From Escallonia rubra (lineage: Eukaryota; Streptophyta; Magnoliopsida; Escalloniales; Escalloniaceae), in the NCBI GenBank assembly GCA_033065855.1, contig JAVXUO010000497.1:154001-218000 (forward strand): a stretch of 64,000 nt of DNA, written 5' to 3'. The notes beneath the pieces were generated by a model, which saw only the letters and a program-made list of their open reading frames with translations, did no database searches and was not told the origin of the DNA. This document shows, piece after piece, positions 12,101 to 60,259 of the stretch (positions are counted from its first letter, which is position 1; each line of letters starts with the position of its first letter). The position numbers were made by a program, and so were the translations under genes.

Positions 12101-15100
12101 CGTCTTCAAGTAGGCCCACCAATAATGGTGATGTTAATGCTATCACTCTTTTGCCTCAGGCTAACAATAAGGATCGTGGAAAAACGTCTTCTCAAATGCT
12201 TTTCTTCAATGGAGTTGGATATCACATGGTAAACTGGTTAGTTATTTTGTCTTATTTGTTTTGATTTTATCTTCTAGTGTCGTTTTTTCATCATAAACAT
12301 TTTTATCATCAGCATCGTCTCCCTTCTCCTATCCACTTCCTATTCCTTTCCAAAACTTGTAGATACATCTGATGCTTCAAGTCCTGATTAGAAACTAGTG
12401 CCTGTCTGTCTTTTATTTGGATTGGTGTTTACTATGTTTTTGAGCTCTTCACTCTGGCTCTTATATTGTGGGTGATAAATAAATCTCTAATCATGTTAAC
12501 AGATTCATCTTCTTATAGTTCTGTCTATCTTAGCTATAAGCCCTTACAACATAATTTATTGGACTTTTACTACTTTTCAGTGGCTTAATCTTGCTGAAGA
12601 TGATGTCAGAGTACATTGATATGAGTAATTTTTTGCCAGCATTGTCGTCGGAGGTTATTCATCGTGTTGTTGAGATCTTGAAATTTTTTAATACTAGGAC
12701 CTGTCAGCTTGTTCTTGGTGCCGGTGCCATGCAGGTATTTATCTTGTTAACATTTATACAATGTATTTTCATCGTACTCGTTTGGGTGCTGAATAGGGTT
12801 ATACTTGCCAAATTTTAAGTTATATTATTTGATGTCAGCAGTTCTTGTATGTACCTGTCTATGCTACTGTGCACAAACTTTAGTCTGGTTTGTTATGTCA
12901 AACCTTGTTATTTTCTAGCGCCAACTCCCCACCCCCCCCCCCCAGGATTAGTGTGGTGAGAATGACTTAAGAATTACAACTTTGCTCTTGGCCAAACAGC
13001 CTTTCCTATACAGTGGACTGAATGAGAAGATATGGAAATAAGAACATAACTATGCTGTCTGCAACACACTTTGTGGTACTCTTAAGCGCAATACACATTT
13101 ATCCTCAGCTTCATAAAGATTTACGATGCCATTTGAATAGTTTATACACAGCTGAATTCGTAGGAAGTTGCGTTTATGATCCATAAGGTCTTGCAATTAT
13201 TTGCAACACATCATAACTACTATCCCATGCATTTATCTTGTGCCTCACTTGTGGCTTGAGGGAACTCATTACCTTTTAGAACTTTTAATAAATTATCAGT
13301 TGGGCAAGTTTGCTAGTCATAATGATTAAACAGTGCTAACGATTTTTCAAAGCTTGGAGTCCAGGTTAGAAATAAGTCTTCACCATTGTTTTTCACCCTT
13401 TCTTTAACGAACAGTTGCATGGAAAACCCTCTTTTTTCGGTCAAAAGCATGTTAGGCATAATTCTTTCTGAGTAATATGTCCCGAATCCGTCCACCGCTC
13501 CCTCACGCATGTCCATGCTTTCACACATGCACTGCAGCCCCGTTCAGGATATATCAAAGTGCTCTGGCAGGAGACTTCTCCTTCACGGGATGTTTGGTCG
13601 TGACTCCTACGCGCCAACATTACCGATTCTCGCAGCGGCTCTGCGGGATGCCTTACTATCTCCGCCCGGGTGACTCACCTGATGCTTGGGACTTCAGCAG
13701 TGATATGTTTACATCCACGTTACTGATGCTCAAGTACCTCTATGGATAATGACCTCCTGGTTACTCTGGGATGGGAGCAGTTGCCTTGTCCGCTTGGCAT
13801 GTCGGTCGCGAGCTTCCCCGCTACTGTCAGGTTCTCTTTTGTTTCTTGACGCCTTTGTGGGACTTAGCAAGGGCACTGGACGGGTGGCTGGATCGAGGGC
13901 ATACACCACCGCAACGGCGTTGTGTGGGTCAAACTTCCTGGGCAGATGTAGTGAAGCTGTAGGGCGCAAAGCAAATGAGTGTAGCGGTGCACCAACATAT
14001 TGTGCACCCTTAGTGTGTCACTCTGAGGTTTTGCCATATGGCATAAGAAGGCAAGCTACATTAGTGGCCTATAAATGGAGGTCTTTGGAGAACTCTCATT
14101 TGCACAACAGTTCACAATCTTCTTTCTCACTCTAAGATCGTAGAGCGTAGAGAAATATATAAAGAGAATACTGTTTGGGCAGCGGTTCCCTAGCATTGGA
14201 ATTGGACTGCCGTCTCCGTACTCCCTCTGTGGCTTTGCCCTTCACACCACTGCCAGTCCTCAAGCTTCGCCGTGGTTGCCACTTTCCTTCCCTTGATCCA
14301 AAGTATTTTCCATAACCTTAATTCTTATGAGGGTACTTATTTCACTTGGATTATACTCTCTTGTGGCACCGTCACGTGTATACGAACGCAAAATATAGAC
14401 GAAAATAACTTTATAAGCAGAAAAGGCCGGTAGAGCAAAAATGGAAGAAAATCTAGAAATTTGGGCCAAAAGAAAAAAGACTTCAAAATCCACCATATTT
14501 GTAGCACCTTCTTTGTTGAGCTTTACATGGTTTATAAAATTGACATTTGAAGTTCAAAATTTGAGAAGCTGACAAAAGTAAATATATGACAAGTTCAGCT
14601 GCAGCTAACTCAACATGTGACATGCACGTGTTGCTCACTTTCAAATGCTCCAAATTTAGAAAGGGTTTTTGGCACGATAATTTACACAATTATACTTGAT
14701 CGTGAGGTGTCCTGTGCTTGTGTCATTCACTCTTCCTTTAAAAGCCTCCTCTATATGAGTAAAGTGGCGCAGCGATTTCTTGAGAACCTCCCAGTCTTCC
14801 CCTGTAAAATCTTCACCAAGCAGGTTCGACCACGCAACCAATACTTGAGGCACAACTGCATTCCCTTCTTTGATCAGTTTTCTGTGAAGTATTTGAAGTG
14901 GCTCCAATAGTAATGGTACCTCTAACATGAAGGCAATTTCTGATGGGTTGGTGTGCTTGCCAACTTGGATCTCAAGAGTATAACATGGGATGCAGGGTGA
15001 ATATGTGAATAGGAAGGTTAGTAGTCTCAAGGCCATTGTCCCAATTTTTTCAATGTTTATAAAAGGGGGAAGAACTTGGCCATTGAACCGCTGGAAAAAG

Positions 15101-36177: not shown

Positions 36178-36432
36178 TGACTCCATCCTCATGACCCTCA
36201 TGAATGTCGAGTTCAATTATGTAGTCACCTGAAAACATTTATAACAAAGTGAGCTTGGGGTTTTAATAAACCCCAAAAACCTATTTGAAGGGCATGGACT
36301 CCATCCTCATGACCCTCATGAATGTCGAGTTCAATTATGTAGTCACCTAAAAACATTTATAACAGAGTGAGATCGGGGGCCAGTAAGTACACATACCATG
36401 CCCTTAAAATAGGTTTTTGGGGTTTATTAAAA
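36178..36432. repeat. Direct duplication plus inverted repeat within the LTR
   Basis: The CTCCATCCTCATGACCCTCA block recurs at about 36180 and 36299. Between them, 36255-36298 is the reverse complement of 36398-36432 (CCCTTAAAATAGGTTTTTGG and GGGTTTATTAAAAC). This pattern suggests replication template switching. Confidence 0.75.
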
Positions 36433-37725
36433 CATACCATGGATTTTCTTTCCAAGATTAGGCAATCAATATCATCATAATGAAAATTGCTTTAATACAC
36501 ACACACACACACACACACACACAAGTACTTGCACAAAAAGATTCTCAAAACTGGGGTATGACATCAAGAAGCTCACAAAATAACTAACACAGCTCATCAC
36601 AACTTAGGTATGTTGCGGCAGCGTACAATCCACCCTAGCCCATAATCCCTACTTCACCCGGGATAAATATTATTGTTCGATCAGAGTACAAGCCCCCCTG
36701 ACTAGGGCCCACAATTCCTCTTCTGCCCGGGATACATATTATTGTGGATGCAGGGGCGAACCACGAGCAACAGTACTATTCATCAACATATGGTCCCGTC
36801 GACCAGGACCCACAATCCAACTTTCTCCCATGGATATGGGGCACAACAACCAAGCCAAATTTACTATCTCATCAACATAAACCAAATTTAAAACAACTAC
36901 TCATAGAAACATTACATGGCAATTTTAACTCATATTCTAGTCGAACAATTTAACATGAAAATATAAGCAATACAAAGACTTCAAAAACTTTCATTTGATG
37001 GAATCATGTCTATGTTTACATATATTGGAGAGTAATGTATACGAAAGAACATGGCAGAAGTACTTGCCTTACTCGACAACTGATTCTGGTACTTGCTCAA
37101 AAGCTAGTCCTAACTCTTGTCTATCGAAACCTAAACGACAAACCATACTGATGTTAATTCTTGATGCTCAATCATGCCTAATAGCTATTTTATCTTGAGT
37201 GAAATTATGAAAATACCCCCCCACCACTTGTGTAAAATTACAAAAATACCTCCGACTCCTAACATACCCATTCACACCCAAAAATAATCCAAAATACCTT
37301 TTTAAACTATTAGGTGGGTTTTTTGGACTAAAAAGTCCCTTTGGGAATTTCCGCTCAAAAACCCTAAATCGCTCCCTAAATTGAACGTTACGACTCAAAT
37401 TTCAAAAGCAAATCAATCGGCACTAGAATGCCGCAAAATTTCAGACACTCAAGTGTCTTAGTAAAATCAGATCACTGTAAATTGTTTGGCTAAAACTAAG
37501 TTTATTTACTGCATCAAATAATTCAAAAACTGGTTTTGAAATAAAATCATTTCAGACCCTTTGCATGCTCAGAAAAATCCCATAAAATTCCACGACATAG
37601 GTTTCATAAAAAAAAGGGAGTTTCAGTTTTGCACTTTGCCTAAATCAACCTCTAAACATCTCACACCAAAAAAAAATCAAAATAGGAACTGCCATCCAAC
37701 TTGTCACTATTCATCATCTTCTACC

Positions 37726-41797: not shown

Positions 41798-43717
41798 TGT
41801 AACGCCCCGAATTTTCGGAGCGTTAATATCGAATAAACAGAGTCAGAAAACCTTAAAGTATCAAAAATTCTCCCCAAGTGGTCATTCAGAGCATGTACTA
41901 ATTAATCCCAAATATACATCAATAAATTCCATAGTGGCATAAAGCATTTATATAATCCAAAGTACTCCGGCACGGAGTTCCAAAATAAAATCTTAACAAT
42001 TTCAATGTGTCTTAATTATTACATCTAGAGATACTAAAACTGAGTCTGAGATAAAAATCGCTACTTCTCAGTCACACAGCTAGCCCCGTAATCCAATCTC
42101 ACCTACTCATCACCTGAAAGGAAAAATAATAAGGGAGTGAGCCAAATGCCCAGTAAGGTCGCTCAAAGAACCAATCAAAAGGAATTAAAAAATGTTTGAG
42201 AAACGAGATTACGGAGATACAAAATTTTAACGGAACAGATACCAGACCGAATTTCAAAATGCAAAAATATATCTTTATACAGAAACAGATACTCGAGAGC
42301 CATTCAGAATAAGGTCACACATGCCATCACAGACACGTGTAACCAGGTTCAGAAAATAAGATCGCGATCTCTAACTCATCCCACTGAGCTAGCCCACGTT
42401 CCATTCCTAGCCCACGTTCCATTACACGTGGGTAAGTCAAAAATATAAAAGTCACATACAACGTGACATGACTCACCAAAACATATATTAGAGACAAAAA
42501 AAATTGTTTAAGCAATACTTAGTAATAGGCCGCACATAGTCGGTCAACCATTACAATAAACAGACATTCGAAGGTAGCGACACAATTTAATTGTGGATCT
42601 AGACGAGATCAACTGAAACTAAATACGTACGAGCATATTGGGTTACAGAATAGGAGACGGGTATACGAAACAGTGAATAACATGAAATTGTACGAGAGAA
42701 AATTGACGCGCAAAACAAATAAAGAATTGCATCCAACTGGCATGCACAAAGAAGGGAAATTTGTGACCTACGACAGCCAAAACAAGGCTAGTCAATGAAG
42801 GGATCTGTACCAATTTTCATGTAAAACAAAACCTAAATTCTCTTGGCCAACTGACACACACACACACACGAGTCAGCCACAGAGTAAAAGGCTTCTGAAT
42901 GTCTCTTCAAATATACTATATTACCAAAATGATGATGACAAAAGGGCATGATTTCAAGACAAACGTGGCATGCAATTCAAAGATGAAGACTATGAAAAAA
43001 GATCCAAATTTATATAATAAAAATCAAAAGAGATGAATCACATCATGGAATAAATCTAGTATAGCCACGTAATGGACTATTAAAATAAAAAAAACCAGCT
43101 TGGGGTTAGTTAGCAAACAGATTGTATATATGACGAGGCCAACATTCGACGGCAGAAAGGTTATGGATATAGGATTATGCACTTTTGAAGGATAGAAATA
43201 ATTATGTGCATCATAAATTTTAGATTTCAAAAAGAAATTAAACTCTTACGATATCGGATTGATTGATCCAATGCTGATTTAGATTTCAATAACAGTAAAC
43301 CCTTACCTCCAATTGTGTAATTCAATCCCAAAACTTTGATCTTCTAAATCAATGGCATCAAACTCCCTAAAAATCAATATACCCTAAAGTTATAGTTAGG
43401 GTTTCAGCAATAACAAAAATTCGTAAGGATTTCAACTACAAACCTCAATTCGATACCCGAAAATAAATTCTTACCTCGAAGTAATGATCAAACTCTCAAA
43501 AGGCTCTTCCTAGGGATTCTCTGGAGACTTTTATGAACTTTTGGTGTACTCTTTGGGTTCTTACAAAATATATATAATACGTAAAATGTTAATAACCTAA
43601 AGATATATACTTATATTCCTAAAATAAAAATTATAGAATACCCATTACGTCCCCAAACTATCTAGATTTTAATTTTCCTCTTTTTTTATAAGCAATTTAA
43701 ATATGCGGGGTCTAACA
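41798..43717. mobile_element. 1.9 kb solo LTR with perfect 5-bp duplication
   Basis: It starts TGTAACGCCCCGAATTTTCG and ends GCGGGGTCTAACA, flanked by caagc (41793-41797 and 43718-43722). The interior is AT-rich with a small (AC)n run, a short direct repeat (CCCACGTTCCATT at about 42393 and 42411), and no retroelement coding domain. TGTAACGCCCC ends are typical of plant Ty3/gypsy LTRs. It is inserted in the LINE ORF2. Confidence 0.85.
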
Positions 43718-43999
43718 CAAGCCAGGCCACGAGGAGCCCAATATCACATCTCAAACCCTAACTTTCCTATCCAACCCCGAGTAAGATATAATCCTATGAT
43801 CCAAAGTAGGAACGATAGGGCCGATCGGGTGCCACCAATTAAACCATAAAGAGATCCGGCTACCATCCTCGACAACATACTGGGGAAAGGAGTGGATCAC
43901 ATCCCTAACCATGAGAATCTTGTGCCAGGACCTGCTACAATCACTAGGGCGTGAGACTTCCCAAAAGCTCTTTCCAATTAGAATGTTGGACTTAACCTA
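43718..43999 (-). pseudogene. LINE ORF2 segment between two solo LTRs
   Basis: It reads VKSNILIGKSFWEVSRPSDC, then SWHKILMVRDVIHSF and SRISLWFNWWHPIGP. It joins the SLWSR end of the 46931-47340 piece; the codon at the join is TAG where Trp is usual. Confidence 0.85.
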
Positions 44000-44158
44000 T
44001 GTTCCCAACCTATTCTGGTCATACCCAAGGGCCCAATAGGAGTCCTATTTCACGCGAACACGTCGACATTGTCAACGGTCAATTTTCCAACGCATCAAAC
44101 CGGTCAGCGCCCGCGCGCCAAAGACACTTGTTTTTCTCGTTCCGCGCGCTTCGTGCGT

Positions 44159-45040
44159 GACTTAGACATTTTATATCACGTCGACGTCACTAACGCTAGC
44201 GCGATCGTCACGCCGAGACCATCCGAACACCTTTCCATCAAAAATATCGGCCGACGGCGCATTTGGAGAAGCTGGGTCAAGGGGGAAAATGGCCTTGGTC
44301 AAGCCCAGGAGGTCGGCCTCGGCCTTCCCCAGGCCATAGGGGTCGGCCTCGGCCTCCTGGGGGGCTTGGCCTTGGCCACTTTCCCCCGGTGGTTCACCCC
44401 TTCCCGCATACCCCTTTTTCGTACTTCTTTCCCCTCGTACGCTTCGTACGTAACCTTGATACCTTGATCGCTATGTGGGTATGATTCTTGGCAACGCGCT
44501 CGTCATAACGCAACTTTTGGAATCATCATTGCCCATCAAAACACCTACCGTCGGCGCGCCCGAAGTTCACCAAGAGGGGGGAGTGGCCCTGGGCTCCTTC
44601 GTGAGAGTTGGCCATTTGGCCTTGGCCAACCCCAGGGGGGTCGGCCTCGGCCTTCCCCAGGCCATAGGAGTCGGCCTCGGCCTCCTGGAGGGCTTGGCCT
44701 CGGCCATTTTCCCCCGGTGGTTCACCCCTCTGTGCAAACCCCTTTCCGCACTTTTTTCACGTGACTTTGACATCTCGTTCGTCATGTAGGTACGATTCAC
44801 GTCGACACGCTTGTCATAATGCAACTTTCGGATTTGTCTTTGCTCATCAAACCACCTACCGTCGGCGCGCCTGAAGTTCACCAAGATGGGGGAGTGGCCT
44901 TGGGCTCCTTCATGGGAGTTGGCCATTTGGCCTTGGCCAACCCCAGGGGGTCGGCCTCGGCCTTCCCCATGCCTAGGGGGTCGGCCTTGGCCTCCATGAG
45001 GGGTTAGCCTTGGCCTTCCCCCCATTTGGGCCAATGGTCT
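44159..45040. repeat. Class A tandem repeats, three units of about 310-330 bp
   Basis: Each unit has the core GGTCGGCCTCGGCCTTCCCC (starting 44311, 44639 and 44949) followed by a second GTCGGCCT(C/T)GGCCTCC. Units 2 and 3 also share CACCTACCGTCGGCGCGCC. They are very rich in GGCC and CpG. Confidence 0.85.
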
Positions 45041-45160
45041 CCCCTCCCGCGCGCACCATAACTACCAACTTGTCATTACTATATATTGCATTCATTATCT
45101 TGTTATGACAGGCACACTCAGCTCACATCTCGTCTTCAGGACACCCGATGCGCGCCCGAG

Positions 45161-45590
45161 CGCCATCGTCATGATACGTGCCCCCGGCACCAAGTATTGC
45201 TCCACGACGTTCGTTGCCGCGCCCTCGCGCCATTCTCATGATACGTGCCCCGGTACCAAATATTGCTCCGCGACGTTCGTCGCCGCGCCCTCGCGCCATC
45301 GTCATGATACGTGCCCTGGCACCAAATATTACTCCGCGACGTTCGTCGCCGCGCTCTCGCGCCATCGTCATGATACGTGCCCCCGGCGCCAAGTATTGCT
45401 TCGCGACGTTCGTCGTCGCACCACTTTCATAACACGTGCCCCCGGCACCAAGTATTGCTCCGTGACGTTCGTCGCCGCGCACTTGCGCCATTCTCATGAT
45501 ACGTGCCCCGGCACCAAATATTGCTCCGTGACGATCGTCGCCACACCACTTTCACAACACGTGCCCCAGGCACCAGGTATTGTTTCGTGC
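45161..45590. repeat. Class B tandem repeats, seven units of about 60-67 bp
   Basis: Units begin at 45161, 45228, 45294, 45360, 45420, 45487 and 45543 with (CGCC or ACCA) then a CATGATACGTGCCCC-like core, and carry GCACCAA(G/A)TATTGCTCC and GACGTTCGTCGCC. They are dense in CpG. Confidence 0.88.
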
Positions 45591-45630
45591 TATAGGCATC
45601 GCGCTCATGCGCCACAATCATGTTGCATGA

Positions 45631-46125
45631 TACCGGGATGGGCTCACAACTTTATAGCCATCGCCGTCTCAATCAAAATGGGGGCTTTGGCCTCGTACCG
45701 GGATGGGCTTACAACCTTATAGCCATCGCCGTTTCAATCGGCCTCGTACCGGGATGAGCTCACAACCTTATAGCCATCGCCGTCTCAATCAAAAGGGGGG
45801 CTTCGGCCTCGTACCGGGATGGGCTCACAACCTTATAGCCATCGCCGTCTCAATCAAAAGGGGGGCTTCGGCCTCGTACCGGGATGGGCTCACAACCTTA
45901 TAGCCATCGCCGTCTCAATCACAAGGGGGCTTCGGCCTCGTACTGGGATGGGCTCACAACCTTATAGCCATCGCCGTCTCAATCACAAGGGGGCTTCGGC
46001 CTCGTACCGGGATGGTCTCACAACCTTATAGCCATCGCCGTCTCAATCACAAGGGGGCTTCGACCCTCGTACCGGGATGGGCTCACAACCTCATAGCCAT
46101 CGCCGTCACAGTCACAGGGGGCTCC
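45631..46125. repeat. Class C tandem repeats, eight units of about 65 bp
   Basis: Units begin at 45631, 45696, 45747, 45812, 45877, 45941, 46005 and 46070 with TACCGGGATGGGCTCACAAC, then TATAGCCATCGCCGT and a GGGGGCTTCGGCCTCG tail. The period is 64-65 bp, with one short unit of 51 bp. Similarity between units is very high, pointing to recent homogenisation. Confidence 0.92.
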
Positions 46126-46569
46126 GACACAAGGACCCCTCGCCACAGACTCGGAGCACTGAGCTGCGACCATGTCCGTTCATGTTACTATCGATCTTCG
46201 ACACCACCAGGGCAATGACCCCCGGGTCACTCCGGGACGGGAGCAGGTCCTTGGAGGGCATCGCGCCTAGTCCGCCTGGCAGTTGGCTACAGGGGTAACC
46301 CTCACCATTGTCAGGTTATCTGCGCGTCTCTTGACGCACCTCATGGGATTCAGTAAGGGCTTGGATTGGTGGCTGGGGCAACGGGTTTACTCTGACCATG
46401 CCGTCATGGTATGGTCAGTCTTCTCAGACAGGCAGAGCGACGCTGTGCGAGGCAGGCAACGCGAATTTAGGAACCGGCGGTCCAACGGAGAACCGGTATT
46501 TTGGGACCCCCTGGTGACGTGTCATTCCGGGGGGACGACATGTGGCACTTTATGACATAAGCACATTAT

Positions 46570-46600
46570 TTTCTATAAATAGTGAACTTTACAACTCAAA
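46570..46600 (+). promoter_or_regulatory. LTR TATA-box region
   Basis: The sequence tataaata at 46574-46581 is followed about 30 bp downstream by a pyrimidine-rich run (CTTCTTCTTCATTCTC). The related fragment in VPS54 intron 8 has tataaat at the equivalent place (14070). Confidence 0.55.
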
Positions 46601-46930
46601 AAAGGACTTCTTCTTCATTCTCACAAAAATCACTTTCTTACTCTAGAATTGGAGAGCTCTTGGATTCTAGAGAAACATAAAATTGGGCATAGCTTAAGAT
46701 CGTAACATTGGACCTCGACTCGGACCCTGACTTGGACTATCGACTGCCGGCCCTGTTCGTCGTAGCCTTGCCTTCGCAGCACTGCCATTCCTCATGGCCT
46801 GTCTAGGAAGCCTTGCTCTCAGCCCTTACTCCGTCCTTGCTGTCTCTCACTTTGCATACTTGGAAGCTGACACGGACTGTAGCCTTTGTGGCACCTCCAC
46901 GTAAGTACGAACCCACTTTCCTTGGCATCA

Positions 46931-47340
46931 TCCTATCTCGACCAGAGGGACTCCTGCATGAAGGAGATGATGGACGAAATGTGCCTAAAAATGGCAGCGC
47001 AGTTCCACACCTCAATATGCTTAATGCCCAGGCCTCCCTCTTCCTTAGGATAGAAAACATCGGCCCAAGCCACCTTGGTTTCCTTTGTACAGAGCCATGT
47101 ACCCTTCCAAAGGAAAGCTTGAAAGATCTGTTCAATATCTAGAATCAATTTTTTTAAGGATAAATATGAGGCCTATTACACCTGGATAGAGAACAACACC
47201 GATTTAATCAGTTGAACCCTACGAGGGTACAACAGGTAATTATAAGTCTCATGCTTGACTTTCTTCACAATGCGATCAAGAAGGCGCTGGCAATCCCTTT
47301 TCCGCAGGCAAGTGAAGAGTAGAGGACTCCCAAGTACCTC
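46931..47340 (-). pseudogene. LINE ORF2 segment (RT C-terminal part)
   Basis: It reads RKRDCQRLLDRIVKKV, then LIKSVLFSIQV, FQAFLWKGTWLCTKETKVAW and FYPKEEGGLGIKHIEVWN. It is typical of the region after the RT palm of plant L1 elements. It continues, after removal of the solo LTR, at 43999. Confidence 0.85.
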
Positions 47341-50165: not shown

Positions 50166-51950
50166 TGGCAGGAATATGAGGATGGTTGGAAGAAAATGTG
50201 ATGAACAGGTTCAAGCAAGAACACCCTTTTGACGAAGACGTAGAAGAGGATCCCGAAGAAGATCCTAATGACATAGAGGAAAATCTGTGGCCCATAGACG
50301 ATGAGCTAGAGGAGAAAGTCCTAGAGGGACCAAAAGGGGGGAAGAGGAAACCGAGCCCGATTCCCTGGTAGACTTTTGAAGGGAACGGTGAGGGATCGAG
50401 TAAGGTACTCGGGGTTGGGGATTTTTGGAATTAAAGTAGCTGGAGAGAGAGACTGACTGGGAAGCCAGTCAAAGAAGCTGAATTAATGAGGGCTAGAGGT
50501 AAAAAAAGGCTGGAGAGGTGTTGTAAAGGGGAAATGAAGCAGATGAAAAGGATGGTAAAGTAAACAATAAATGCTGGAGAGAGTTATTCAAGGAACGCAA
50601 TAGGTGGTCCGGAATAATCACCCTAGAAGAGTTATGTTGAGGGAAAGGCGACAGATGCTCCTTGATGAGGACTACCGGTGTACAGAGTTTTGTCGGGAGC
50701 GATGTAGGCTCTTCTAGTTGAGAGTGGAAGGAATTTCACAGTGTATATATGTGTAATGTAGAGGAGTTGTGTTTAAATGTTGTATGTAATAACGATTTTA
50801 GTTGTTTAAATTCTAGATGTTGAGTTTAAAATGTTAGTTATGTTAATTTGAGAATGGCACGATAATTGAGAAATCGTGTAGTACCTCATGCTGAAGGACC
50901 TCCTAATCCAGGAGAACCCCAGACTGAAGTATCAACATCAAATGCTGAGGGTATAAGTGTTGGTAAGAATGATGGTGGAGCTGTTAATAATAGGAAGGAT
51001 TTAAGGAGGTAATTAGTCGGACTGTTATAGGGAATCGTATGACCTCCCATAGCACACGTGGCAGCTATTGTTGCACCTGTCTCGGTAGAGGGGAAAAAGA
51101 TGGTCTAAATTTTGGGATTAGTTTCACGGGGGCAATGACCTTATCCGAACAGTGACTTGGATTAGGGAAATGGAGAAAGCCTTTAAAATAACGGGTTGCG
51201 GAAAACACCAAAAAGTAGTTTATGCCACTCATGTATTGAAAGGAGCAGCAAGATATTAGTAGGATGTGCAATCAATCAAACCTATATTATATGGAAGCGG
51301 TTCAAACAATATTTAATGAGAAATATTTTCTCATGGTGTGCAAAACAAGTTGGAAGCTGATTTTCTGAATCTAAAACAAAAGAAAAAAAAAGGATGGTGG
51401 GGGAACAAATAAGAGACTTTGACGAACTGGCTCGTTTCGCGACACAACAGGTGGTTACAGAGGATAGGAAAGTTAGAAGGTTCGAAGAAGGACTGAGACA
51501 AAGTTTAAGGAGGATTGTCAAGAGTTTCCAACTTAGAACCTTACTGAAGCTGTATATAAAACTCCATTGATTGAAGCAAAAAACAAGGAGGCATAGGAGG
51601 AAAGGAAGGAGCAAGGAAGAAAGAGGAGCAATAACCAAGATTGGGGAAAGGACAGTGGAAAGAAGTTTAGAAGGAAAATTGAGCAAGGAAAGTTCGAACA
51701 AAGTTCAGGCCAAGCAGGAAATAAAGAATGCAGGTGGTGTAGGTTGAAGCATGAATGCACAAACTGTATAAGGGCAATGCCAACATGTTTCAAATGTGGC
51801 AAGCAAGGTCAAAAGGCAGGTGATTGTATGATAAACCAGAGAGTTCGCTTTCAATGTCAGACAATGGAAGGGATAATGGAAGGAAGCCCTAAAATTAGAA
51901 GATATGGTCACATGCACTTTTCTTATATGCTCGCATCAGGCCATGGTGTT
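50166..51950 (+). pseudogene. Degenerate gypsy gag with zinc knuckle
   Basis: It starts with an acidic leader (DEDVEEDPEEDPNDIEENLW). The gag core at 51390-51560 (IRDFDELARFATQQVV, then RRFEEGLRQSLRRIV) is followed by a Lys/Arg/Gln-rich stretch. The knuckle at 51786-51827 reads CFKCGKQGQKAGDC, where the zinc-binding His is replaced by Gln. Multiple stops and frameshifts are present. Confidence 0.8.
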
Positions 51951-52059
51951 AATTGATTCTGGTGCTACCCACTCTTTTTTTTCACTAGAATTTGTTAATA
52001 AATTGATTGTGCCCTGGAAACCGTGTAGTACAGTGATAAATATACCTAGTGGACACTTC
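51935..52059 (+). pseudogene. Gypsy aspartic protease fragment, truncated
   Basis: It reads VLIDSGATHSFFSLEFVNKL with the catalytic DSGA intact (GAT at 51955), but the frame stops at the junction near 52060, where reverse-strand LINE RT begins. Everything downstream (RT, RNase H, integrase, 3' LTR) is missing. Confidence 0.85.
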
Positions 52060-52450
52060 TTTTTTGCCTCTAGAAAACAATCATAGGCCTTCATCAAATC
52101 CACCTTAATGGCACATTTACGACTCCTAAAATTCTCCCAATGATAATTAGGCATCAAATCCTGAGACCGGAGGATATTATCTGCAATACTCCTAAAGGCA
52201 ACGAAGGTCGTAGGGGAAGGGTCAATGAGGTCCCCAAGACCCACCTTAACACGATTAGCAATGATCTTGGCAATGCACTTGTAAATTCTATTACGACAAG
52301 AAATAGGCATGTAGTCAATAATACTCGAGGGATAGTTCCTTTGAGAATCAAGACAAGGAAGGTATGGTTAACTTTTTTGAGAAGGTGACTGTTCCTATAA
52401 AAATCTTGAATTGCCTCAACAATCTCCTCCCCCACAATATGCCATGCCTT
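52060..52450 (-). pseudogene. LINE reverse transcriptase N-terminal fragment
   Basis: It reads EEIVEAIQDFYRNSHLLKKV, then CIAKIIANRVKVGLGDLIDP, ending CAIKVDLMKAYD across one frameshift. This is the palm/finger start of plant L1 RT. It stops abruptly at 52060 against forward-strand gypsy sequence. Confidence 0.85.
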
Positions 52451-56892: not shown

Positions 56893-58928
56893 ATAAGAAT
56901 GTATTGTCACTACAAAAATTTGTGAGTGTTTCAATTGATCAACCAATGGCTTTTAATACCCATATGAATGTAATTCATGGGATCACCATTCACATAGGTT
57001 AGGTTCCCTCTAGGTCCGTGACCGGCCGCAGGCCCATCCGAACATCCACCCAGGGCTCTGTCAGGCCTTACTACAACCTGTACACAAGAATCTATAACCA
57101 AGTAATTTAAATCTATCTCCTTAATAATATTTCTAAAATCACGCTTATAAGTTCCCAATGAATCTCCAATGACATTCTTTATTTAACAACTAACATGGGT
57201 CATTTTAAATCCAGTAGAGATCTAAGCTCCAAAAATTCTCAAATTACAACTTTAGTACTAGCACTCCACCAAATGATTTATTAAGTAATATAAGAGGACT
57301 ACAACTCCTCTAGCAGTCATCTACCATAGCTAAATCCTTGTGGCCCTCATCAGTGCTGATTCCATCTAGATAATCACATGAAAACATTTATAAAAGAGTG
57401 AGCTTGGGGCCCAGTAAGTACACATACCAAATTCCTAAAATAGGTTTTGAGATTCATAGAAGCATGCCATGGTTTCTCTTCGATTTAAAACTGGTAAACA
57501 TTTTCACAGAAGATACTATACATATATACTTTATGAAAGCAATTCATCCAATATTTTCAGAACATAGGCATGACATTAAGAAGGCTCATTAACAACTATC
57601 ATAGTTCATCACAACTTAGGTATGTTGCAGTCAGCGTACATTCCCCCCTGACTAGGACCCACAATCCCTACCCCTTCCTGGGATAAATATTATTGTGGAC
57701 GCAAGGGCGAACCATGAGCAATAGTACTGTGCATCAACGTATCGTCCCGTCGACCAGGACCCACAATCCAACTTCCCCCGTGGATATGGGGCACAACAAC
57801 CAAGTCAGAAATACCGTCTTTTTTTCAACATAAGCGAACTTTAAAACACTACTCAGATAAATATTACATGGCATTTTTTATGCATTTTCTCATCAAACCA
57901 ATTTACACCAAAAAAAAGTAGCATGTGAAAGTCTTTAAAACTTCTAATTGGAATAAATCGTTTATACATTTACATAGAAGGAAAATAGGGTATACGGAGG
58001 AATATGGCAGGAGTACTTACCTCGCTGAATAACTGCTTTTGGTATTTGCTCAAAAGCCGGTCCTAGCTCTTGTCTATCGAAACCTAAATAAAAATTAACA
58101 CGGATGTTATTCATTCCCGTTCGAGTACACCTAACCATTAAGTTTTCCTCAAGTAAGTGAAATTACCAAACCCCCCCTCGACTTTAGTAAAATATCTATT
58201 TACCCCCGACCTCTAACGTACCGTTACATACTCCGATATAACCAAAAAGAATACTTTAAACAACTAGGTGAAATTTTTGGACCACAATGGCCTTTCGGGG
58301 AATTTTCCGCTCGGAATCTTAAGTCGCTCCTTAAATTGAGCGCTAATGTTTCTATTTTAAAAAATATATCAAACAGCACCGGAATGCCACGAAATTTTAG
58401 ACACTTAAGCCTCTCAGTACTTTTAGGTCACTATAAAATTCTAGGATAAAAATAATTTTTTTTACTATGTTAAATAATTCAAAAACCTGTTTTAAAAGTG
58501 AAATTGTTCGAGGCATTTTCCATGTCCAGAAAAATCTCAGAAAATTCCACGTCGAAGATTTCATAAAAATAAGGGAATTTTTAGTTTTGTACTTTGTCTA
58601 AATATACTCATAAGAGGTCCTTAAAAATAATTTAATAAACTATTGTAATAGTGAAGCGTTACGCTATATCCTATCGAGCGCTACACTGCTAATAACGCTA
58701 AAAATGGCAAACGACTTTCAAAACTTTTGATACTCTGGAATATACATTATCATAGCTACATAAGGCTATTATAAAAGTATCATAATTTAATAACTTAATT
58801 TACTATTTTAAAATACACCGAAAAACACTCCCTCCTTGCTGCTTACACCTTACTCCCATGCACACAAAACAGACACATCTAAGCACACTGAAAAACACTC
58901 CCCACACTTGCTGTCTTTCTCTTCTCCC

Positions 58929-59917
58929 ATGGGAGCTGATCCATTGATAGCGCTAGCAAAATAGGAGAAGTTGCTAGCGCGATCTGGCCGTCCACGCGCG
59001 ATCTGTGGACGGTCCAGATCTTTTTTTGCGTTTTTTTTAAGTACGTCCGCTACATTATGTAGCGGACAAGTTTTTTTGACAAAAATACCCTCCAACTTCG
59101 TCTGCTACATTATGTAGCGGACAGAGGCCATACTTTTTTCTGACTTTTTCTCTCTCTCCTTCTCTGACCACTTTTTCTGACTCTTTCTCTCTCTCTCTTG
59201 CTGGGAGATCGTCATATGCAGAGAAGCAACACGATGACCCAACTGTTCTCTTCCTGGTAAATTGATAACCAGCCTTGCTAACAAAATCTCTTGTACAATA
59301 ATAAGAATGTGCCGGCAAGGGAGCAAACCCAACTGCTCTCTTCCTGGCCGAGCCCTCCTCAGAATCAGAAGCCTTCTTCAATGGGGCTTCACTAGTTGTG
59401 CGCTTGTAAAGGCCAAACCACTTCACCAGCACGTACCCGTACCGTCTCCATGGCGGCATATGCATTTCCATGGTTTTCATAGACTCTTTGGTGGTGCTGC
59501 ACATTAGCTTCACAACCCGCTTCAGCTCTTCCGCTTTGCCCACGAAAATTGGAGGCAATTCATCGAGCATCGACGCGTAAAGGTCAGTTGGCCGGGCTAT
59601 TTTGAACTTGCCAGCAAGAAAAGCTTCGACTATGTACCGCGTTCCTGCAACGTTGACATCAACGTACTCGTAATCACCAGAAGGAAGCCGTCCGTTTCTC
59701 TCCCATAGATGCAGCGGTGCCCAATATGCTGAGGCTACGGCGGCGGCGCCGAGGCTACGGTTGTAATGTCGAGGCTGCTGTGGTGAACCTTGTGACTCTC
59801 TCTCTAAAGGTGCTAGTGATGATGATGGATATGGGGGTTGGGGAGGCGAATAAGAAGAACATGTAGTTCAGAGAGGGGAGAGAGAGATGAACAAGATATG
59901 GGTTTTTTTTCCTATAA

Positions 59918-59949
<32 letters not shown>

Positions 59950-60255
59950 TTGACGTGGGGTTGGCAGACTGTCTGTCTTTTCTGAAATATGGTCCGCTAC
60001 ATTATTTAGCGGACGATATTTTAGAAAAGACACTTGAAGATTGAGGGGTATATTCGTCAAAAATATCGTCCTCTACATAATATAGCGGACAGATTGAGGG
60101 GTATATTCGTCAAAAATATCGTCCACTACATAATGTAGCGGACAGACTTAAAAAAAACGCAAAAAAAGATCTGGACCATCCACAGATCGTGCGTGGACGG
60201 CCAGATCGCGCTAGCAACTTCTCCTATTTTGCTAGCGCTATCAATGGATCAGCTC

Positions 60256-60259
<4 letters not shown>
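58929..60259. mobile_element. Pack-MULE-like element with captured DUF506 fragment
   Basis: Terminal inverted repeats of at least 140 bp are about 95% alike by eye and start ATGGGAGCTGATCCATTGAT, with internal GCTAGC palindromes and five copies of a GTCCGCTACAT-type palindrome. The 1.33 kb element holds a GC-richer gene fragment on the - strand and no transposase. No target-site duplication is visible, because the right flank is an AT microsatellite. It is inserted in the 56898-62010 LTR. Confidence 0.82.
59055..59720 (-). pseudogene. DUF506 (PDDEXK-like) gene fragment captured in a MULE
   Basis: The frame is open through LPSGDYEYVDVNVAGTRYIV, then AGKFKIARPTDLYASML, PPIFVGKAEELKRVVKLMC, MPPWRRYGYVLVKWFGLYKR, and a tail ARKRAVGF..AHSYYCTRDF. 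Order and motifs match the plant DUF506 family. Similarity covers about 150 residues of the C-terminal half. The frame continues past the conserved end into the element's own repeat to a stop near 59055. There is no start or promoter of its own. Expression as a chimeric transcript is possible but not shown. Confidence 0.8.

Follow-up and report, generated by a model that had tools for sequence, protein, structure and literature searches.

Results

The Solo LTR and Its Insertion Site

The segment at 44000–46930 of the window, the 64,000-nucleotide stretch of Escallonia rubra DNA analyzed here, is a solo LTR derived from a plant LTR retrotransposon that is present in high copy number and, with gag only, is non-autonomous (Table 1). 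It comprises one LTR with a target duplication on either side and no interior. Its edges, proposed by an earlier sequence-only reading, are common to 20/20 copies read, none of which has other boundaries; the alignment is confined to 43997–44000 through 46930–46931, and all 20 share the end sequences TGTTNNCAAC ... TTGGCATCA. A second query places the LTR start at its first base in 39 of the 40 long rows and at base 3 in the remaining one. The eight other solo LTRs examined are all bounded by perfect 5-bp target-site duplications.

Removal of the LTR and one duplication joins the flanks into a single frame containing stops, which reads as LINE-type sequence. The Pfam search gave no domain match for the target pieces, so this label rests on motifs of apparent LINE type, on the continuity of the frame, and on an RVT_1 match, weak and below the cutoff, that lies farther along this strand. 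The solo state would have arisen by LTR-LTR recombination. A search of the window for Rfam families and tRNA genes found none, and a bacterial promoter scan was set aside as inapplicable to plant DNA.

Table 1. Features of the solo LTR, its surroundings, and a diverged relative in the window
Feature	Position	Strand	Remarks
Diverged LTR relative	13716..14390	+	Matches 46181–46915; 59% over 758 columns, E 1.5e-21, permissive scoring
Insertion target, rest of LINE-type frame	43700..43999	-	Continuous with the 46936..47335 frame
Left target-site duplication, ACCTA	43995..43999	.	4/5 bases equal to right copy
Solo LTR	44000..46930	+	TGTTCCCAAC...CTTGGCATCA, 2931 bp
Unique left end of U3	44000..44240	+	CpG observed/expected 1.75
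Class A array	44241..45055	+	3 units of ∼320 bp (spacing 310–328 bp); GGCC-rich, 30-bp subrepeats
A-B spacer	45056..45150	+	95 bp; ∼205 bp extra at left edge in most copies
Class B array	45151..45590	+	Period ∼66 bp; 7 matches to the core ACGTGCCCCCGGCACCA within 2 edits
B-like spacer	45591..45640	+	50 bp; near-identical to a portion of the 56-mer array in the sister subfamily
Class C array	45641..46130	+	8 units of ∼65 bp, one of 51 bp; unit matching, Tandem Repeats Finder
TATA box, CTATAAATAG	46573..46582	+	In 21/21 LTRs, 358–365 bp from LTR end
R-U5	46605..46930	+	Predicted from TATA position
Right target-site duplication, TCCTA	46931..46935	.	1/5 bases unlike left copy
Insertion target, first half of LINE-type frame	46936..47335	-	Holds stops

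Full-Length Elements Occur in a gag-Only Long Form and a Short Form

Full-length elements with two such LTRs, anticipated by the sequence-only reading, were found in C1307, C1071, C42, and C1005. Each has two direct LTRs with TG...CA ends, and each pair lies between perfect 5-bp target duplications (aaatt, atgtt, gactt, and cactt, respectively); the C862 LTRs were not paired because their target duplications differ. A PBS, TTTTGGCGACTC(C/T)GCTGGGGA, follows the 5′ LTR, and a PPT, a tract ending AGGGGGCTTA, precedes the 3′ LTR (in the 12 of 21 copies that have an interior side). The PBS may be complementary to tRNA-Arg, the primer type of Tat/Ogre/Retand elements.

The interior, of 3.1–4.7 kb, occurs in a gag-only long form (599–601 codons; gag domain PF03732, E 4.9e-10) and in a short form, represented by C1071 and C42, with no long gag frame. 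Judged by space and open-frame lists, the elements read contain no pol; only 2.6–2.7 kb separate the end of gag from the LTR in four sister copies. LTRs and interior sum to ∼9.6–11.3 kb (C1071, C42, C1307), and the 3′ UTR contains tandem repeats. The gag gene is abundant: the best 73 of 4817 first-look candidates match over the full length, 63 of these 73 without a stop. We found no description of this family in the literature searched.

U3 Is Mostly a Minisatellite Patchwork

Most of U3 is a patchwork of minisatellites, which runs from the left edge and stops ∼440 bp short of the TATA box. The three tandem classes lie where the sequence-only reading described them, inside the LTR and upstream of the TATA box, with 3 units of A, 6 or 7 of B (6 by unit matching, 7 by core motif), and 8 of C; the main rows of Tandem Repeats Finder score 511–677. 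Its description of the classes as unrelated is correct for A, B, and C compared with one another, which show no mutual similarity relative to 100 shuffles each, but not for class B relative to repeats elsewhere in the element (see below). The B-like spacer resembles both B and the sister subfamily's 56-mer (0/100 shuffles each). The A-B spacer has an additional 185–324 bp, mostly 204 bp, in 38 of 40 copies, between query parts ending at ∼1057 and starting at 1056, and is continuous only in the window and in C1457. By contrast with this patchwork, the last 800 bp, comprising promoter-proximal U3, TATA, R, and U5, show little variation across the copies found. The left end diverges more, with a mean pairwise K of 0.10 (280 bp) versus 0.024 (last 801 bp) in copies chosen by the right part of the LTR. 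Transcription is predicted to start ∼30 bp past the TATA box.

Short tandem units at high copy number could also be independent satellite DNA, captured by an LTR or merely adjoining one. We consider this highly improbable, since the arrays occupy fixed places inside the same LTR edges in all copies read, albeit with queries whose unique LTR sequence favors such copies, and since searches of both strands for A, B, and C units found none in the remainder of the window.

The LTR had also been described as having a very high CpG and GGCC content. It is indeed GC-rich (0.52–0.61, with 0.41 in the A-B spacer, versus 0.40 in the window upstream), but CpG is unevenly distributed. The observed/expected ratio is high in the left end (Table 1) and in class B (1.63), intermediate in class C with its spacer (0.92), and lower in the last 800 bp (0.74), class A (0.70), and the A-B spacer (0.59), the flanks being at 0.54–0.56; GGCC is a property of class A, and CpG of the left end and class B. 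The interior's last 700 bp are also CpG-rich (1.2–1.4). These values would suit a role for the arrays as a CpG-island shield or moving target, in which length-variable, CpG-rich sequence reduces or dodges promoter silencing rather than binding activators, and the excerpted text of PMC4029996 proposes the same idea for Del LTRs, whose 5′ CpG island varies in length. We regard this explanation as unlikely here. The copies are young, which leaves little time for CpG decay; transitions at CpG sites are already 1.5–1.8 times those at other C/G sites, which may point to some methylation; and CpG richness does not extend to class A or the promoter-proximal part.

Class A was also considered as a selected hairpin and rejected as functional evidence, without covariation support. 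Unit 1 folds into a hairpin with z −4.2 (0/200 shuffles). However, in 38 aligned units, 31 of them distinct, 84.0% of cells are paired versus 83.3% in shuffles (10/500 reach this), covariation is not above that of shuffles (75/500 reach it), and RNAalifold on the class A units yields a different structure. The alignment comprises 38 of 68 listed references, picked by hand; it leaves out matches below 75% identity, everything from L040, L042, L043, and L044, the second unit in both L045 and L046, and a further four matches, shifted and of 79–83% identity (two in L032, one each in L038 and L047), and the window's own units 2 and 3 are absent from the reference list.

Array Number Varies between Copies and within Elements

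Arrays A, B, and C are present in all 21 LTRs compared, none of which has lost one. Unit number ranges from 3 to 12 for B and from 5 to 12 for C, counts that leave out both C1005 LTRs (4 and 5 units of C, 4 and 5 of B), and explains 91% of the variance in LTR length. Solo LTRs and full elements show no difference in array number (p 0.18 and 0.19). Within elements, the number is unequal between the 5′ and 3′ LTRs in three of the four pairs: the pair with equal arrays is the youngest, with 5 differences over 801 bp, and the three unequal pairs show 9, 10, and 21. Older elements have two LTRs that differ in array number, and the units are inherited with the element; unequal exchange or slippage following insertion could account for this drift.

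The near-identity of class C units had suggested a recent local expansion, a proposal that we reject for the window site. Units are no more alike within LTRs than between them (0.899 versus 0.902 for C; 0.867 versus 0.864 for B), and the end units of arrays match end units across LTRs. Since C is also found in 21/21 LTRs, its array is best explained as inherited and then altered in number. Most of the class B unit is highly conserved within the class, which fits homogenization as well as constraint. The diverged relative at 13716–14390 does lack arrays, as had been noted, but this says little because its match is limited to the 46181–46915 part of the LTR.

Class B Shares a Core with a Sister Subfamily

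Class B has relatives among the repeats in the 3′ UTR of the element itself: in 7/7 interiors, none of 60 shuffles reaches the observed score, whereas none of A, C, and the last 800 bp stands out from shuffles against the 3′ UTR. In BLAST comparisons, the match is strong in four of the seven interiors (E 2.5e-7 or better) and weak in C2224 (0.002) and C42 (0.7), with C1071 unlisted. A B-type repeat is present on either side of the PPT.

In a sister subfamily, A- and B-like arrays are retained but a different array stands where C would be, indicating that the element does not depend on any one array type. The 56-mers of this subfamily are related to class B, and the B-type units of the two subfamilies have kept a 17-base core, ACGTGCCCCCGGCACCA. 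The core occurs in U3 of 4/4 sister LTRs (0/20 shuffles of each stretch); it was picked after the first sister array (C1453) had been seen, the later checks being C2050, C1933, and C1542, the last of which partly carries window-type B. Identity is 0.93 inside the core and 0.79 outside, above any slid position tried, in comparisons that are mutually dependent and leave out gaps. The core has an ACGT center, presumably like that of plant bZIP/bHLH factor sites. C1542 is a mosaic LTR in which window-type A and B are followed by sister-type 56-mers and 169-mers.

Several of these observations would also be expected if the arrays were neutral, that is, if U3 minisatellites arose as side products when reverse transcription slips or switches strands, like the hypervariable 3′ UTR repeats of Tat/Ogre, and were tolerated since nothing but TATA, R, and U5 matters. 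Array number varies freely, even between the LTRs of one element; class C is swapped for another array in the sister subfamily; and B is related to the 3′ UTR repeats. Conversely, the B-type core is more conserved between subfamilies than its surroundings and is present in all four sister LTRs, and not one of 21 LTRs lacks any of the arrays. We view neutrality as quite possible, though short of probable.

Discussion

We favor, with moderate confidence, an account in which the solo LTR derives from a gag-only element whose U3 arrays act as an enhancer scaled by copy number, with the core under selection. An enhancer role is plausible from the arrangement of the LTR: tandem units upstream of a TATA box and varying in number are a feature of enhancer-array LTRs and are found here. 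Under this account, the arrays would form a multi-site U3 enhancer, its strength scaling with copy number, that may help a gag-only element to compete for pol made by others, and the B-type core would be the part most likely kept by selection. New array types may reach U3 via exchange with the adjoining 3′ UTR, and might also be exchanged by template switching between subfamilies packaged together. A stronger version, which we hold only tentatively and consider somewhat unlikely, is that U3 is an exchangeable regulatory cassette, its minisatellite modules swapping through template switching between 3′ UTR and U3 and between subfamilies, while the core is kept inside units that otherwise turn over and array number sets promoter strength. 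Promoter evolution in a gag-only parasite would then proceed through the exchange of enhancer repeats and changes in their number.

Neither the 3′ UTR tandem repeats of Tat-type elements nor enhancer arrays in retroviral LTRs are new. What is new is that one abundant gag-only family links 3′ UTR repeats with U3 arrays, with a B-type repeat flanking the PPT, together with the kinship between class B and the 3′ UTR, the array swap in the sister subfamily, the shared 17-base core, and the mosaic LTR. Arrays make up most of the LTR's upstream part, and modules appear to be swapped between subfamilies. The copies also provide a natural series, from 3 to 12 units and with 5′/3′ pairs of known divergence, for testing U3 array number against transcription and for examining how satellites arise in retrotransposons.

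Among known systems, the TR-GAG class and LARDs likewise have LTRs, a PBS, and a PPT; gag without pol, the TR-GAG-like feature, is found in our long form only, the short form being without gag. TR-GAG elements are small, whereas here an LTR of ∼3 kb built from three arrays lies in an element of ∼9.6–11.3 kb. Tat/Ogre/Retand (OTA) Ty3-gypsy elements share with this family tandem repeats in the 3′ UTR beside the 3′ LTR and a long non-coding part, and some members are described as non-autonomous in excerpts of PMC7004042, PMC11963269, and PMC6317226. They differ in that the present arrays are located mainly within the U3 region and the elements read show no pol.

Sirevirus LTRs carry highly repeated short motifs, and these make up a CpG island immediately 5′ to the conserved TATA box (PMC2829016, in excerpt). 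Sireviruses, however, are Ty1/copia elements with palindromic CGG-CCG boxes, in contrast to the 65–320 bp units and different PBS found here. The PBS is not of the Sirevirus tRNA-Met type, as judged against the tRNA-Met sequence. Copia lineages with whole-tRNA primers use tRNA-Met, according to the excerpt of PMC6317226. The LTRs of Del (Ty3-gypsy) elements, like those here, have a length-variable, CpG-rich left part and a less variable right part (PMC4029996, in excerpt), but Del elements are coding, and that text never uses the term "tandem repeat".

A parallel in layout comes from human ERV9/LTR12, in which a U3 with 5–17 tandem units holding binding sites acts as enhancer and promoter, and many copies are solos (excerpt of PMC11853044). 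ERV9/LTR12 differs in being an animal retrovirus of unrelated sequence, with one U3 array of 41-bp units and NF-Y sites; it also has 72-bp repeats in U5. In plants, the BII boxes of tobacco Tnt1 are tandemly repeated, short, and located in a small copia LTR. These U3 boxes are bound by defense-induced factors (PMC3316501, in excerpt).

Boundaries and Copies of the LTR

The three mutually unrelated tandem arrays lie inside one 2931-bp unit, confirming its description, made from the sequence alone, as a single LTR-bounded element. A query with its right part (46130–46930) gave 5474 first-look candidates in the genome, and the best 40, which were scored, all match at 95–100%. The right edge falls at 46930–46931 in 28 of 29 other fetched copies, the remaining one stopping at 46924. 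A 5.4-kb reading of each of 20 copies puts the left edge at 43997–44000 and the right edge at 46930–46931 in every one, the LTRs starting with TGTTNNCAAC and ending with TTGGCATCA. With a second query, 44000–45140, the LTR start coincides with the first query base in 39 of the best 40 of 2192 candidates and with the third in the other. Since the copies share both edges, the boundaries first proposed, 44000 and 46930, are correct.

Coordinates of the LTR and of other features in the window
Feature	Position	Remark
Window	154001-218000 of contig C1862	source genome 566 Mb
Solo LTR	44000-46930
Array A	44241-45055
Class A unit 1	44281-44389	near-perfect inverted repeat, ~109 bp; fold z -4.2 (44270-44400); covariation support for the hairpin, none
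Array B	45151-45590
B-like spacer	45591-45640	50 bp
Array C	45641-46130
TATA	46573-46582
RVT_1-like fragment	51939-52367 (minus)	E 4e-05, below Pfam cutoff
Diverged LTR relative	13716-14390	aligned to 46181-46915
Inverted pair	58929-59097 / 60091-60259
Dispersed direct repeat pairs	36303-37541 / 57334-58497

The copies read and the window copy together give 21 LTRs. Nine have neither PBS nor PPT alongside, and perfect 5-bp duplications flank eight of these nine solo LTRs; the window solo has ACCTA/TCCTA. The other 12 adjoin an interior, with TTTTGGCGACTC(C/T)GCTGGGGA after the LTR or, ahead of it, a tract that ends in AGGGGGCTTA; among them, the C1308 copy is probably the C1307 site on an overlapping contig, its flank being the same as that of the C1307 3′ LTR. 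Full-length elements with two such LTRs, which the sequence-only reading had proposed as confirmation, were found on four contigs (C1307, C1071, C42, and C1005), each with matching duplications. On C862, the two LTRs lack a common target duplication, and the flank actgg is common to the C862 3′ LTR and the C178 5′ LTR (stretches L035, L036, and L037); this pattern would reflect either inter-element recombination or a contig mis-join.

Removal of the LTR and one duplication from the window joins the flanks into one continuous minus-strand frame, which contains stops. We take this frame, from its motifs, to be part of a LINE; it has no match in Pfam. The RVT_1-like fragment lies further along the same strand and may possibly belong to the LINE that the LTR entered.

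Array Number, Origin, and CpG Content

The arrays occur in identical order in all 21 LTRs, and CTATAAATAG, the TATA, is found in every one, 358–365 bp before the LTR end. Repeat number varies among copies, as the comparison suggested at the outset reveals: unit matching gives 3–12 class B and 5–12 class C units. Class A has 3–4 marker matches per LTR, several of them extra 30-bp subrepeats, and three full-size units in 19 LTRs but two in both C42 LTRs. LTR length ranges from 2794 to 3672 bp, and array numbers account for 91% of its variance. Between A and B, 38 of the best 40 of 2192 candidates for 44000–45140 carry 185–324 bp, mostly 204, that the window copy and C1457 lack.

The two LTRs of an element are identical when inserted. 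In three of four pairs the arrays are now unequal (B9/C9 versus B3/C7 in C1071, B6/C10 versus B8/C12 in C42, and B4/C4 versus B5/C5 in C1005), a comparison that rests on just four pairs and is open to array assembly errors, with no gap (N) seen in the loci. The arrays are equal in C1307, the youngest pair, which shows 5 differences over 801 bp; the other pairs show 10, 9, and 21. At a substitution rate of 1.3e-8 per site per year, these differences give ages of ∼0.2 to 1 million years.

Units are no closer within LTRs than between them (0.867 versus 0.864 for 146 class B units; 0.899 versus 0.902 for 177 class C units), and first and last units match their counterparts in other LTRs at 0.92–0.97. 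These values contradict the recent expansion at the window site that near-identical units had suggested; by unit similarity, the arrays were inherited rather than grown locally.

The CpG excess first described is real. Observed/expected CpG reaches 1.75 in the left end and 1.63 in B, but is uneven, at 0.92 in C with its spacer, 0.70 in A, and 0.74 in the last 800 bp, with flanks at 0.54–0.56. Transitions at CpG sites exceed those at other C/G sites 1.83-fold (right) and 1.45-fold (left). Youth and GC-rich modules may be enough to explain the excess.

The Interior and Its Relation to Class B

Five complete interiors span 3115–4670 bp. In the long form, a frame of 599–601 codons is open from the PBS onward and encodes a protein with a Retrotrans_gag match (PF03732, E 4.9e-10). 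This frame is open in C1307, C862, C178, and C2224, interrupted in C863, and absent from the short form (C1071 and C42). In a genome search with the gag protein, the best-scoring 73 of 4817 candidates, a selection favoring intact copies, all match at full length and 93–100%, and 63 are stop-free. In four copies at 94–96% (C1453, C2050, C1542, and C1933), 2.6–2.7 kb separate the gag end from the LTR start, which, given the usual pol length, we take to leave no room for pol; the open-frame lists of the interiors show nothing pol-like. Judged from this space and these lists, the family is gag-only; it is abundant, with gag open in many copies. An 86-bp repeat of about 2–3 units lies downstream of gag (stretches L051, L052, and L060), and the middle of seven interiors is pyrimidine-rich (72–76% C+T).

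In the interior, too, CpG is enriched over the last 700 bp (observed/expected 1.2–1.4). Local alignment of the B array to this 3′ UTR beats 60/60 dinucleotide shuffles in all seven interiors, with the largest margin in five long ones (26–32 versus a shuffle mean of 12–13) and a small one in two short ones (19 and 20). By BLAST, E is 2.5e-7 or better in four interiors, 0.002 in C2224, and 0.7 in C42, C1071 is not among the matches listed, and sequences read backwards give zero B matches. Against the 3′ UTR, no excess over shuffles is seen for A, for C (reached by 3–11 of 60), or for the final 800 bp of the LTR, and the left end stands out in one of seven interiors. Elements of the Tat type are known to carry tandem repeats in their 3′ UTR (PMC7004042). 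By its resemblance to the last 700 bp, class B is related to such 3′ UTR repeats, a kind that thus flanks the PPT on either side.

A Sister Subfamily with Different Arrays

The LTRs adjoining the 94–96% gag copies have the same ends, the same PPT, and a TATA box, but different arrays. In C1453, a GGCC array is related to A, a 56-mer to B, and a 28-mer to the 3′ UTR repeats (0 of 100 shuffles each), and a 169/38-mer unrelated to C stands where C would be; C2050 and C1933 have the same array kinds. The score of the 56-mer against the C segment traces to the B-like spacer, not to C units. The C1542 LTR (L063, C1542:534600-540125, minus strand) is a mosaic of window-type A and B on the left (81–94%) and sister-type 56-mers and 169-mers on the right. 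The subfamily appears to swap array modules. The left 280 bp of window-type LTRs are more divergent than the right 801 bp, a comparison biased by picking copies by the right part.

A 17-base core, ACGTGCCCCCGGCACCA, first noticed in C1453 (4 matches), was then searched for and found in 3/3 further LTRs (C2050, 2; C1542, 7; C1933, 4; all counts with ≤2 edits); 20 shuffled versions of every stretch gave no match. When unit boundaries are set by period instead of by the core, identity is 0.931 in core columns (1538 comparisons) versus 0.786 in others (3253), these comparisons being non-independent and leaving out gaps, and their Fisher value cannot be read as a true probability; eleven slid labels give 0.79–0.91.

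A Putative Multi-site Enhancer

A transcription start predicted ∼30 bp downstream of the TATA would place the arrays in U3, where they would serve as upstream elements for the promoter of the 5′ LTR and would also be carried near the RNA 3′ end. The arrays are most likely a multi-site enhancer in which ACGTGCCCCCGGCACCA is the leading candidate site, and their unit number is free to drift through unequal exchange. Close behind comes a neutral reading, in which the arrays are by-products of strand switching. Four precedents for this mode of action are described: 5–17 factor-binding U3 units in ERV9/LTR12 (PMC11853044), a CpG island composed of repeated motifs upstream of the TATA in Sirevirus (PMC2829016), a length-variable 5′ CpG island in Del LTRs (PMC4029996), and the BII boxes of Tnt1 (PMC3316501).

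The elements read offer no pol for tree placement. Their PBS resembles that of tRNA-Arg users, a pairing we presume. Such users are listed among non-chromoviruses in PMC6317226. The identity and boundaries first read hold, and the function of the arrays is putative. TR-GAG elements are likewise gag-only, although their LTRs are unlike the family's long array-built LTR. They are named in PMC10552921.

Elsewhere in the window, the diverged relative of the LTR's last quarter is 59% identical to it, with arrays absent and CpG observed/expected of 0.62. The inverted pair is 89% complementary over 169 bp, its arms 993 bp apart, and the dispersed direct repeats, ∼21 kb apart, agree at 74–88%.
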